Of a stretch of DNA of 42,521 nt, positions 21,521 through 36,940 are shown one piece after another. Made by a program: the position numbers and the translations under genes. The notes beneath the pieces were generated by a model, which was not told where the DNA came from, did no database searches, and saw nothing but the letters and a program-made list of their open reading frames with translations. The stretch is from an uncultured cyanobacterium (lineage in GTDB: Bacteria; Cyanobacteriota; Cyanobacteriia; Thermostichales; Thermostichaceae): NCBI GenBank assembly GCA_937944885.1, contig CALFBB010000009.1, forward strand, positions 1 to 42,521, in the 5' to 3' direction. Positions within the stretch are counted from its first letter, which is position 1. Every line of letters begins with the position of its first letter.

Positions 21521-22738
21521 TTGAAAGCAGTCAAGGTCAGAATTTATCCCACCAATGAGCAGTCCATCACGCTAGCTAAGCATTTTGGTTGTACTCGATG
21601 GCTGTGGAATCATTGCTTGTCTGTCATGACGGAAACGTACAAGACGACAGGCAAGGGAATCTCTGCTTTCACCCTGAAGAAACAGATTCCCATCCTGAAA
21701 GCGGAGCATGAATGGCTGAAAGAGTGTTATTCTCAATGCTTGCAGCAATCAGTTTTGAATCTGTCTCAAGCGTTCCAAAACTTCTTTGAGAGCAGAGCAA
21801 AGTATCCCAACTTCAAATCAAAACACTATAAATCAAAACACTATAGACAGTCGGTTCAGTTTCCTCAAAACGTCAAAGTCATTTCTGAGTCTGCAATCAA
21901 GTTTCCTGGCTTGCTGGGAATAGTTACAGCCAAGATTCACAGACCTATTGAGGGAACTATAAAAACTGTCACGGTGTCCAGGAGCCTAGACGGGAAATAT
22001 TTCGCTTCTCTGCTGGTTGATGACGGCATAGAAAAGCCTGAATCTTCCAGCGAGGGAAAGGTAATTGGGATCGATTTGGGGTTGACAGACTTTGCTATTA
22101 CTTCTGACGGCTCAAAGTTCGCAAACCCTCGCCACCTCAAAAAATATGAACGCAACCTAAAACGGAAGCAGCGTAAGCTGTCTAGACGGAAAAAAGGTAG
22201 CAAGAATCGCAACAAAGCGCGGTTAAAAGTTGCCAAAGTGCATAGCAAGATTGCACGGGTAAGAAAAGACTTTCATCAGAAGCTATCCCGCAAGATAGTC
22301 AACGAAAACCAAGTGATTGTGGTGGAAGATCTAGCGGTTAAGAACATGGTCAAGAACCACAACCTAGCCAGGGCGATAAGCGATGTCGGTTGGGGGCAGT
22401 TCTGTACCATGCTCAAGTACAAGGCGAAGCTTGAAGGCAAGGTGTATCTGGAGATTGGGCGATTCTTCCCGTCTTCCCATTTGTGATCAAGTACACTGTT
22501 GCCGCTAGAGAAAATGGATCTCTCAGTCCGAGCGTTTGTCTGTCCTCACTGCCAAGAACGGCATGATAGGGACATCAATGGGGCGATCAATATCAGAAAT
22601 GAAGGCTTGCGGATTTGGGCCTCAGGAAGTGGGGCTTCTGCTTTGGGAGGGACTGTAAGACCAAAGGGAGGAAGGCGCAAGTCTACCCTCTCGGAGGCAA
22701 GTCCCGATGAACAAAGAAGCCCGCGCTCTATTGCGTAG
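21521..22738 (+). pseudogene. tnpB: TnpB (RNA-guided nuclease of IS200/IS605), relic 1, nonsense mutation
   Basis: The frame from TTG 21521 encodes KAVKVRIYPTNEQ and a full TnpB body: RuvC-I GIDLGLTDFAI, the arginine/lysine-rich bridge, and RuvC-II VVEDLAVKNMV. At GRFFPSS the first zinc-finger pair is destroyed: the first Cys codon is now TGA (22484-22486) and the second position encodes Thr. The same frame then continues with CPHCQERHDRDINGA, the second zinc pair and RuvC-III Asp, to TAG at 22738. Without readthrough the product lacks the last catalytic residue. A perfect 15-bp in-frame duplication adds KSKHY. AT-rich composition and Lys-rich codons differ from neighbours. No tnpA accompanies it, so it is IS1341-like. 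Confidence 0.9.
21816..21845 (+). repeat. 15-bp perfect tandem duplication inside TnpB relic 1
   Basis: AATCAAAACACTATA occurs twice without a gap. It keeps the frame and repeats five residues (KSKHYKSKHY), which most TnpB proteins would not have at this point. Confidence 0.9.
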
Positions 22739-33083: not shown

Positions 33084-34607
33084 ATGGCTACCTTTGAAGA
33101 CGTTGTCCCATCATGGGAGGGGCTCCCGCAGCGGCTACCTGGAGTGGATACAACGGTGGTGATTGGGGCAGGGCCGGCGGGGTTAACTGCTGCCTATGAG
33201 CTCAATCGCAAGGGATGGCCGGTGACGGTTTTGGAGGCAGACCCGGCCCAGGTGGGTGGACTATCTCGCACAGCCGTTTACCGAGGCTACCGTTTTGATA
33301 TTGGTGGGCACCGCTTCTTTTCCAAATCGGCAGAAATTGAGGCGCTGTGGACGGAGATCCTGGGCTCTGAGATGCAGGTTTGTCGGCGACTGTCGCGCAT
33401 TCTTTACCAGGGTGTTTTTTTTAACTATCCCATTCATCCCTTTGATGTTTTCAGTAAGTTGGGGCCGGTATTTACCACCCTTTGTTTACTGAGCTACCTA
33501 AAGGCACGACTGGTTCCCAGATCTCGGATCGTTTCTTTTGAAGACTGGGTGATCGATCAATTTGGGGAGCGGCTTTATCGTACCTTTTTTAAGACCTATA
33601 CCGAGAAGGTCTGGGGGATCCCTTGTAGCCAGATTAGTGCTGATTGGGCGGCTCAGCGGATCAAGGGATTATCCATGGCCTCTTTGATTCGCAAAACCTT
33701 GTTTCCCAAAGGAGAAGGGGTAATTAAAACCCTGATCGATTGCTTTCGTTATCCCCGTTTGGGGCCAGGGCAACTGTGGGAGCGCATTCAAGCTTTACTA
33801 GCAGAATCTGGCCAGCCGGTACAACTGGATCGCAAGGTGGTCCAGATCTACTGGGATAAAGGCGGGATCCAAAAGGTACAAGCCCGTTCTCGAGCAGGGG
33901 AGATCTTTGAGTGGACAGGGCAGCATTTTATTTCCACCATGCCTTTGCGCTCTTTGGTGCGTGCTTTGGTGCCAGCGGCTCCCCAGCCGGTACGAGAGGC
34001 AGCCGAACAGCTGCGCTACCGCGATTTTTTGACAGTGGTTCTGGTGGTGGATGAACCGGATTTATTTCCGGATAATTGGATTTATATTCACGATCCGTCG
34101 GTGCGGGTAGGGCGCATCCAAAACTTTAAGAACTGGAGCAGGGATATGGTGCCTAACCCCGAGGTGACTTGCTTGGGTTTAGAGTACTTTTGTTCTGTGG
34201 CGGATCCCTTTTGGCAACAAACGCAGGCAGAGTTGCTGAGTTTGGCAGAAACAGAATTGCGCCGCTTGGGTCTGTTGAAGAAAGCGAGGGTTTTGGAGGG
34301 TACGGTGATTCGTGCCCCGAAGGCTTATCCGGTTTACGACCATGGTTATCAAACCCATATCCAAGTGATTCGGGCCTTCCTGGAGGAGGTCTTGCCCAAT
34401 TTGCAACTGGTGGGTCGCAATGGCATGCACCGCTACAACAATCAAGACCATGCCATGATGACGGGCCTACTGGCGGCTCGCAACATCTTGGCCGGGGAAC
34501 GGCGCTACGATGTGTGGCGGGTGAATCAGGATGCCGAGTACCTGGAGGAAGGGGATCCCACTGCGGGCGGGCGGGAGGTGCCGCAGGTGATTGGTCAAGC
34601 GGGCTAG
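33084..34607 (+). CDS. FAD-dependent oxidoreductase of the UDP-galactopyranose mutase / amine oxidase group
   Basis: A 507-residue flavoprotein. The N-terminal Rossmann motif TVVIGAGPAGLTAAYEL (about residues 25-41) with VTVLEAD binds FAD. GGLSRTAVYRGYRFDIGGHRF follows, as in UDP-galactopyranose mutase-like and protoporphyrinogen oxidase-like proteins. The segment FKTYTEKVWGIPCSQISADW is typical of the UGM-like subgroup, and GRNGMHRYNNQDHAMMTG near the C-terminus closes the FAD site. The likely function is sugar-nucleotide remodelling for surface polysaccharide, or another flavin reaction; the sequence does not decide. GAGGAG six bases before ATG gives a strong start. The gene ends in the CTAG that also holds the lpxB stop. 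Confidence 0.85.
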   Translation: MATFEDVVPSWEGLPQRLPGVDTTVVIGAGPAGLTAAYELNRKGWPVTVLEADPAQVGGLSRTAVYRGYRFDIGGHRFFSKSAEIEALWTEILGSEMQVCRRLSRILYQGVFFNYPIHPFDVFSKLGPVFTTLCLLSYLKARLVPRSRIVSFEDWVIDQFGERLYRTFFKTYTEKVWGIPCSQISADWAAQRIKGLSMASLIRKTLFPKGEGVIKTLIDCFRYPRLGPGQLWERIQALLAESGQPVQLDRKVVQIYWDKGGIQKVQARSRAGEIFEWTGQHFISTMPLRSLVRALVPAAPQPVREAAEQLRYRDFLTVVLVVDEPDLFPDNWIYIHDPSVRVGRIQNFKNWSRDMVPNPEVTCLGLEYFCSVADPFWQQTQAELLSLAETELRRLGLLKKARVLEGTVIRAPKAYPVYDHGYQTHIQVIRAFLEEVLPNLQLVGRNGMHRYNNQDHAMMTGLLAARNILAGERRYDVWRVNQDAEYLEEGDPTAGGREVPQVIGQAG

Positions 34608-35809
34608 ATTGGCCCTTGCGGATGCCGACCCGTTTTGCCATCCAAGACCTCCAGAATGGCTTTGGCAGCTCGACGCAGCACCCCTGGCTCCCCAAGAGCT
34701 GCTCGCATGGCCGCATAGTCCGCTTGCAGCTGGGCTTGCCGCTGGGGGTTGGTAAGCAGGGTCAGGGCCAGCTCCAGCACCTTTTCCGGTTGGGCCTCCT
34801 CCTGCAGCAATTCCGGCACAATGGCGCGCATCTGCACCAGGTTGGCGGGAGACATGAAGGGTACAGACACCTTCAGCCAGTGGCGGGCAATCCAAAAGGT
34901 GACTGGGTTAAGGCGATAGACCACCACCTGTGGGATCCCCAAAATGGCTGTTTCCAAATTGACGGTGCCGGATTTGGCTAACACCAGATCGGCGGCTGCC
35001 AGGGCCAGGTGATGCGCCTTGTGGGGAGAGGGAAGGGGCAACGACTGGGGATCCAAGAGGGTGAGATCGACTCCAAAGCGGCGGGCCGCACGGGCGATGG
35101 GCCGGGCAAAACGGGGGGAGGCTAGGGGCACCCAAAAGTGCACCTGGGGCAGATGCTCCTGCAACAAGCGGGCGGATTGGAGCAGAATGGGCAGAACCAG
35201 CCGAATCTCCTGTTGACGGGAGGCAGGCACCACCACCACCACGATTGCCTCGGCAGGGATCCCCAGTTGGGCTCTGGCTTGGCTACGGCTAGGCACGGTG
35301 GCCAAAATATCCAGCAGAGGGTGGCCGACATGGCGCACATTGGCCCCGGCTGCTTGATAGTAACGAGCCTCCTGGGGAAAAATCGCCAGCATCAGCTGCA
35401 CCTGGCGGGCCAGTTGGTAGGTCAGGCGGGCATTCTGGGACCACACCCACTCCTGGGGGGCGATGTAGTAAACCGTCGGGATCCCCTGCTGCTGCAACAG
35501 GCGGGCCACACGACTGTTAACGCCGATGTAATCTACCAGCACCGCAACATCCGGCGGATCCTGAGCCAGAAAACGACGAATTTTCCATTCCGTCCACAGG
35601 GCCGGGCCGATAAAGGGGAGGGCCTCTAGGATCCCAATGGAGCTAATCTCGGTGGTGCGGTGCAATAGGTGAGCACCGGCAGCAGCCATGCCCTCCCCAC
35701 CAACGGCGGTGATGCGCAGGTATGGACGTTGCTGGAGTAGTTCACGGATGAGGTGACTGGCCTGCAGATCCCCTGAGACCTCTCCCGTGCAAATGAACAG
35801 GTGGCTCAC
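34604..35809 (-). CDS. lpxB: Lipid-A-disaccharide synthase
   Basis: LpxB condenses UDP-diacylglucosamine with lipid X to form the lipid A disaccharide, peripherally at the inner membrane. The 401 residues include the N-terminal FICTGEVSGDLQASHLI, VGGEGMAAAG, LVDYIGVNSRVA, IAPQEWVWSQNA, and the C-terminal glycosyltransferase part ADLVLAKSGTVNLETAILG with PQVVVYRLNPVTFW. All are standard for the family. The start is GTG 35807-35809; on the minus strand AAGGA from a tandem repeat lies seven bases upstream, so the repeats supply the ribosome-binding site. It is the last gene of the lipid A operon. Its TAG stop shares the palindrome CTAG with the convergent flavoprotein gene. Confidence 0.96.
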   Translation of the reverse strand: MSHLFICTGEVSGDLQASHLIRELLQQRPYLRITAVGGEGMAAAGAHLLHRTTEISSIGILEALPFIGPALWTEWKIRRFLAQDPPDVAVLVDYIGVNSRVARLLQQQGIPTVYYIAPQEWVWSQNARLTYQLARQVQLMLAIFPQEARYYQAAGANVRHVGHPLLDILATVPSRSQARAQLGIPAEAIVVVVVPASRQQEIRLVLPILLQSARLLQEHLPQVHFWVPLASPRFARPIARAARRFGVDLTLLDPQSLPLPSPHKAHHLALAAADLVLAKSGTVNLETAILGIPQVVVYRLNPVTFWIARHWLKVSVPFMSPANLVQMRAIVPELLQEEAQPEKVLELALTLLTNPQRQAQLQADYAAMRAALGEPGVLRRAAKAILEVLDGKTGRHPQGPI

Positions 35810-35811
35810 AC

Positions 35812-35848
35812 GTTATCCTTAGTTATCCTTAGTCATCCTTAGTCATCC
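35812..35848 (-). repeat. 10-bp tandem repeat (about 3.7 copies) carrying Shine-Dalgarno-like AAGGA
   Basis: On the plus strand: GTTATCCTTA twice (35812-35831), GTCATCCTTA (35832-35841) and a partial GTCATCC. On the coding strand each unit reads TAAGGATAAC or TAAGGATGAC and contains TAAGGA. The array spans the lpxA stop codon and reaches to within three bases of the lpxB start. Unit number would not change the frame of lpxB but changes the lpxA-lpxB spacing. Confidence 0.85.
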
Positions 35849-36756
35849 ATCTCCAGATCCTCTCCCTCAGAGGAGTCTTGTCTGCCTCTGCGTAAAACCG
35901 GTAAGGGGCCACGCCGCTGCGGCTGGGTGAGGGAGTCTTCCAAAAATTGCAGCAAATGCTGCAGGGATCCCGTCTCATCCACCAGTTCTTTCCCCTGGGT
36001 AGAGAGGATACGGTCACGGTTGCGCAGGGTTTGCAGGGCTTTTTCCAGAGGTAAGCCGGAGCGGTACAGCAGCCGATAGGCTTCCCGCAGCACCGGTAGG
36101 GATCCCTCCATACCCTTAGCTCGCCGTAACCCCACCAGATTCAAGCCACGAATGCGGGCCGGGTGACCTTCCGCCAACATGTAAGGAGGAACATCCCGAT
36201 CAACGCGGCTCATCGCCCCCACCATGGCCAGCCGCCCCACACGGGTAAACTGATGGATCCCCACCATCCCGCCAATGCGGGCCTGGGACTCGATGTGGAT
36301 ATGTCCGGCCAAAGCAACAGCGTTGGTAATCACCACCTGACTTTCGATCACGCAATTGTGAGCAACATGGGCATAGGCCATGAGCAAATTGTTGTCCCCG
36401 ATCAGGGTGGCTTCCCCCTCATTGGTGGCGCGATTGATGGTGACGAACTCGCGGATGCGGTTACCCCTGCCGATGATCACTTGCGAGGGAGCGCCGTTGT
36501 ACTTGAGATCCTGGGGCTCCGTGCCCAAGACCGCCCCTGGAAAGATCTGGTTGCCCTCACCGATTTCTGTCCAGCCATCGATGACCACATTGGCCCCCAC
36601 CACAGTATGGGCAGCAATGCGGACATGCTCACCGATCACCGCATGCGGGCCCACCTGCACCGTTTCGTGCAACTCCGCTTTCGGATGGATCACCGCCGTA
36701 GGATGGATCCGTGGGGAAGAGTTGGGAGTGGATCCCGCTGAAGCCAACGAACTCAT
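35839..36756 (-). CDS. lpxA: UDP-N-acetylglucosamine acyltransferase
   Basis: LpxA adds a beta-hydroxyacyl chain to UDP-GlcNAc, the first step of lipid A synthesis. At 305 residues it is longer than the 262 of E. coli, with extra residues at both ends. The left-handed beta-helix is visible as hexapeptide repeats from IHPTAVIHPKAELHETVQVG onward, and YAHVAHNCVIESQVVI holds the catalytic His. IGGMVGIHQFTRVGRLAMVG and the C-terminal helical domain (YRLLYRSGLPLEKALQTL) follow. The last 40 residues are acidic and basic mixed and probably disordered. ATG 36756 was chosen; TTG 36774 is possible. The stop lies in the tandem repeat array before lpxB. Confidence 0.96.
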   Translation of the reverse strand: MSSLASAGSTPNSSPRIHPTAVIHPKAELHETVQVGPHAVIGEHVRIAAHTVVGANVVIDGWTEIGEGNQIFPGAVLGTEPQDLKYNGAPSQVIIGRGNRIREFVTINRATNEGEATLIGDNNLLMAYAHVAHNCVIESQVVITNAVALAGHIHIESQARIGGMVGIHQFTRVGRLAMVGAMSRVDRDVPPYMLAEGHPARIRGLNLVGLRRAKGMEGSLPVLREAYRLLYRSGLPLEKALQTLRNRDRILSTQGKELVDETGSLQHLLQFLEDSLTQPQRRGPLPVLRRGRQDSSEGEDLEMDD

Positions 36757-36940
36757 TTCTAACCCAGCTAGCAAATGTGGTTACGCTCCCAACCCTGCAA
36801 ATCATGACAAAGGCTTGATTCTGCTTAGCATCTGTTGCCTGCCTCTATCCCAACACTTTAGCAGGGTCTTTTGGCAACAAGTGGTTGCTCCTACCTTTGA
36901 CCTAGGCCTATGGCAGTACTCTTACTTGCCCCTGCCCTCA

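Follow-up and report, generated by a model that had tools for sequence, protein, structure and literature searches.

Introduction

Intergenic short tandem repeats and long simple sequence repeats, with units of 5-11 nt, have been described in bacteria and cyanobacteria, including TAACTGA heptamers that immediately precede start codons (MacGregor 2015, PMC4679880). Between Cyanothece PCC 8801 and 8802, the heptamer repeats upstream of starts differ mostly by whole units (PMC4679880). Tandem repeats in the 5' region can also phase-vary genes, and the AGAT repeat of Moraxella catarrhalis uspA2 is one of the examples reviewed in the same article. For adjacent genes, reporter constructs in E. coli and Haloferax volcanii showed that translational coupling drops steeply with the distance between them, with almost none left at about 20 nt (Huber et al. 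2023, PMC10666635).

Here we describe a tandem repeat of a 10-bp unit at the junction of lpxA and lpxB. The window is the whole stretch of DNA that was analysed, with a length of 42,521 nucleotides, and the genome to which it belongs (2.82 Mb, 62 contigs) is called the window genome. A sequence-only reading of the window had proposed that changes in copy number of this repeat could serve as a phase-variation device for lipid A.

Sequence and position of the array

The array is located on the minus strand at 35812..35848. Direct reading from 35848 to 35812 gives GGATGACTAA, GGATGACTAA, GGATAACTAA and GGATAAC, i.e., 3.7 units of 10 bp in a total of 37 bp, and copies 1 and 2 differ from the last two copies by one G/A. 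TRF reported the interval 35815-35848 with a period of 10, 3.4 copies and a score of 61. Both the direct reading and the TRF score confirmed the tandem array of a ribosome-binding-site-like unit that the sequence-only reading had placed between lpxA and lpxB. An assembly error is unlikely as its source, because a 37-bp array lies well within one read.

The genes on both sides were identified with NCBIfam equivalogs, each scoring over its cut-off. The lpxA gene (acyl-ACP--UDP-GlcNAc O-acyltransferase; 35839..36774, minus strand, longest ORF from a TTG) matched PRK05289 with 372 bits (cut-off 226), and lpxB (lipid-A-disaccharide synthase; 34604..35809, minus strand, GTG start) matched TIGR00215 with 317 bits (cut-off 190). 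The gene order on the minus strand is lpxC-fabZ-lpxA-lpxB, in which lpxC and fabZ were named by inspection.

In the sense direction, the junction reads GAG ATG GAT GAC TAA GGATGACTAAGGATAACTAAGGATAACGT GTG AGC CAC. The lpxA stop codon TAA (35841-35839) sits in the first repeat unit, so that the array does cover the lpxA stop, as had been claimed. The lpxB GTG is at 35809-35807, which leaves a gap of 29 nt between the stop of lpxA and the start of lpxB in the window genome, with no -4 nt overlap. The earlier description of the unit was also accurate: it carries a Shine-Dalgarno (SD)-like AAGGA, and TAAGGA occurs three times in the array. The AAGGA copies are found 26, 16 and 6 nt upstream of the lpxB GTG (35809). 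The last copy (35816..35820, minus strand) is rightly placed for lpxB, with a spacing of 6 nt instead of the seven bases given before, whereas the copies at 16 and 26 nt are, by the established range of SD spacing, too distant to serve this GTG as SDs. The 16S 3' end used was that of a congener, G002 (GGATCACCTCCTTT), standing in for that of the window genome. The array also contains a mini-ORF of five codons, ATG ACT AAG GAT AAC TAA (MTKDN; 35819..35836, minus strand), whose ATG is 2 nt past the lpxA stop and whose end is 9 nt before the lpxB GTG; judged from its sequence, this mini-ORF appears to be incidental.

The junction across the genus

Six species-level genomes of the genus, one per species, were compared (the window genome and G001-G005). 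lpxB was present in all six, with 82-88% protein identity between the window's copy and the other five, and the lpxA tail was directly upstream in each of them. The array was observed in one of the six genomes, that of the window, and no close match to it was found at the lpxA-lpxB junction of the five congeners. For a more distant relative (G007), the DNA upstream of lpxB contained no lpxA-like tail.

The sister species G005 and G004, with the junction segments GATGAAAAGGACACCGAGTG and GATGACAAGGGTAACGCGTG, respectively, have about one unit (GATGAAAAGGACACCGAGTGAGCC in G005 and GATGACAAGGGTAACGCGTGAGCC in G004), and lpxA reads through it. In these two genomes and in G001, the lpxA TGA and the lpxB GTG share 4 nt as GTGA. 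There is no such overlap in G002 and G003, where the lpxA TAA is followed by an unrelated 26-nt spacer without repeats and with a GGGAG. This spacer contains GGGAGCGTAGCTCTGG, a possible small hairpin enclosing the SD-like GGGAG, unlike the other congeners. A hairpin at the window's own junction was considered and rejected, since the folding was weak (-9.4 kcal/mol for 75 nt), the relatives giving stronger structures.

The window, G004, G005 and G001 have in common a purine-rich SD element located about 6 nt upstream of the GTG, and in G001 it is a GAGGA preceding the lpxB start. This element is independent of the repeat. A tree of the lpxA-lpxB region grouped the window with G004 and G005 (100/100), and G001 with G002 and G003. 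On this topology, an ancestral GTGA overlap costs two changes, and an ancestral TAA with a spacer costs two changes as well; hence either direction of the 1-nt frame change fits, be it the gain of a T on the branch of the window or its loss in G004 and G005. The multiplication of the unit is specific to the window lineage. One genus offers matched natural variants of one junction, at -4, +26 and +29 nt, for tests of coupling.

Tandem arrays in the window genome

A 384 kb sample of the window genome was used as the repeat background, and dinucleotide shuffles served as controls. At a TRF score of at least 61, the sample gave 26 rows, some of them overlapping, compared with a total of two in ten dinucleotide shuffles. 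When arrays with a score of at least 54 were merged, 37 distinct arrays were obtained in the 384 kb versus 0-1 in the shuffles. By a rough ORF call, 21 of the 37 were outside ORFs, and seven of these 21 touched a stop codon or were no more than 40 nt from a start. The array between lpxA and lpxB is beyond chance, yet it is ordinary for the window genome. Its motif occurs at one site only in this genome; a dispersed repeat family was rejected on account of this single site and of the junctions of the congeners, where no close match was seen.

Other repeats were observed as well. At 21815-21845 of the window, there is a perfect tandem duplication of 15 bp x 2.1 (AAATCAAAACACTAT), possibly in frame, in an ORF that on visual inspection resembles a transposase gene. 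Longer arrays at L042:19327-19528 and L029:7967-8150, with units of 36 bp and 33/66 bp, respectively (multiples of three), are probably coding.

Slippage as the probable origin of the array

We propose, with a probability of about 0.8, that the array arose by lineage-specific expansion through replication slippage, and that no switching function is needed for it. The seed would have been an imperfect short direct repeat, consisting of two GATRAC-like hexamers 9-10 bp apart as seen in G004 (GATGACAAGGGTAAC), which replication slippage would have expanded to 3.7 copies in the window lineage. The copy adjoining lpxB, with its AAGGA 6 nt before the GTG, is the sole copy placed to work, and the copies upstream of it would form a passive spacer. 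With lpxA and lpxB now 29 nt apart, lpxB would rely on its own SD and not on termination-reinitiation.

The slippage reading is favored because the sister species holds the seed, because the copy-to-copy differences fit successive duplications, and because a second junction was expanded likewise. The surplus of arrays of this type in the window genome over the shuffles also speaks for it. The two signs of slippage were both found at the lpxA-lpxB junction: the head-to-tail copies exceed chance, and close relatives have fewer units at the orthologous site. The second junction is between thf1 (PF11264; thf1/psb29) and cutA (PF03091) of the window genome: the stretch from the thf1 stop codon to the cutA ATG holds a tandem duplication of 15 bp (L039:11518-11547, on contig C7 of G000). 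In the sister G004, only a few bases lie between the thf1 stop and the cutA ATG, with no duplication. As two unrelated gene pairs show a like expansion, this suggests that the lineage tends to mutate in this way, rather than that the array is a lipid A device. The lpxA-lpxB junction may be a natural example of slippage between a stop and a start that parts two genes overlapping in sister species, with the downstream SD preserved.

Effect of unit number and alternative roles of the array

When the number of units was varied in silico from 1 to 5, the last AAGGA stayed 6 nt from the GTG and lpxA ended at the same TAA. The gap between stop and start was 9, 19, 29, 39 and 49 nt for 1, 2, 3, 4 and 5 units, respectively. 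With the 29-nt gap, coupling between lpxA and lpxB is predicted to be weakened or largely lost and lpxB to depend on its own SD, by analogy with distance rules that were measured in E. coli and an archaeon, not in cyanobacteria. A slow, evolutionary effect of spacer length on lpxA-lpxB coupling is plausible. In this respect, the earlier suggestion that copy number could tune lpxB or its coupling was right in part: the two sisters have about one copy of the unit and the window genome 3.7, so the spacer length has shifted in the course of evolution and coupling may have shifted too.

It could further be argued that the array is a graded tuner, in which copy number sets the coupling of lpxA and lpxB and so adjusts LpxB output, with partial reinitiation at a 9-nt gap and further steps at 19 and 29 nt. 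Each unit does add 10 nt to the gap at a constant SD spacing, coupling is steeply dependent on distance over just this range (PMC10666635), and the length of the junction varies between species. However, the effect would already be saturated at the 29-nt gap found here, slippage is expected to be slow in an array that is short and interrupted, and lipid A is made by a housekeeping pathway. We therefore regard a graded tuner as unlikely. Slightly less likely still is a more elaborate form, where a register-neutral 10-bp repeat carrying its own stop and SD would act as a coupling spacer adjustable by slippage, with the mini-ORF possibly relaying ribosomes, so that LpxB would be tuned stepwise without on/off switching.

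The mini-ORF might on its own take over ribosomes at the lpxA stop and release them 9 nt short of the lpxB start, by which coupling would be kept despite the gap. Its geometry fits such a relay, and most of the pairs measured in E. coli still showed substantial reinitiation at +2 nt (PMC10666635). On the other hand, an AAGG adjoins the ATG of the mini-ORF and leaves no SD spacing, and the peptide arises as a side effect of the repetition and is found in one genome only, which makes the relay very improbable.

In classical phase variation, slippage would turn lpxB translation on and off, as tandem repeats in 5' regions do for other genes. Phase variation via frame or SD spacing is excluded here by construction: the reading frame cannot be switched because the lpxA stop lies in unit 1, and the SD cannot be switched because its spacing is always 6 nt. 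Gain or loss of whole units alters neither the frame of lpxA nor this spacing, and the two AAGGA copies further upstream are out of reach of the start. The array has few and imperfect copies, being short and interrupted, and alike arrays are common and scattered through the genome. We found nothing on point in the literature on phase variation of lpxA or lpxB or on switching by SD copy number. Hence, classical phase variation is extremely unlikely, the proposed phase-variation device was not borne out, and the array should not be taken as a pointer to phase variation of lipid A.

Equally remote is the binding of CsrA, which has an ANGGA motif as its target, or of another RNA-binding regulator to the repeated AAGGAT to block lpxB initiation: three ANGGA motifs, 10 nt apart, do overlap the lpxB initiation region, but the array is absent from the congeners and a CsrA-regulated leader was rejected since a search for a CsrA homologue (PF02599), positive in control genomes, found none in the window genome (95% complete).

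Comparison with known systems

Like the repeats described in PMC4679880, the lpxA-lpxB array consists of short direct repeats immediately before a start, with stop codons, and such repeats sometimes extend over the stop of the upstream gene, as here. A further likeness is that lengths vary among related cyanobacteria by whole units. Unlike the dispersed TAACTGA heptamers, it has a 10-bp unit of another sequence, forms a single array and has a unit that itself holds an SD-like AAGGA. It resembles the poly-G of Moraxella catarrhalis uspA1 and the AGAT repeat of uspA2, as they are cited in PMC4679880, in being a tandem repeat shortly before a start, and differs from both, as summarized there, in that its 10-bp copies are few and imperfect, frame and SD spacing are untouched, and the gene is a housekeeping gene. 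Termination-reinitiation pairs with a -4 nt overlap (GTGA/ATGA; PMC10666635) have exactly the lpxA/lpxB arrangement that is seen in three of the congeners. Unlike these coupled pairs, the two genes of the window are 29 nt apart, a distance that should leave little of their coupling.
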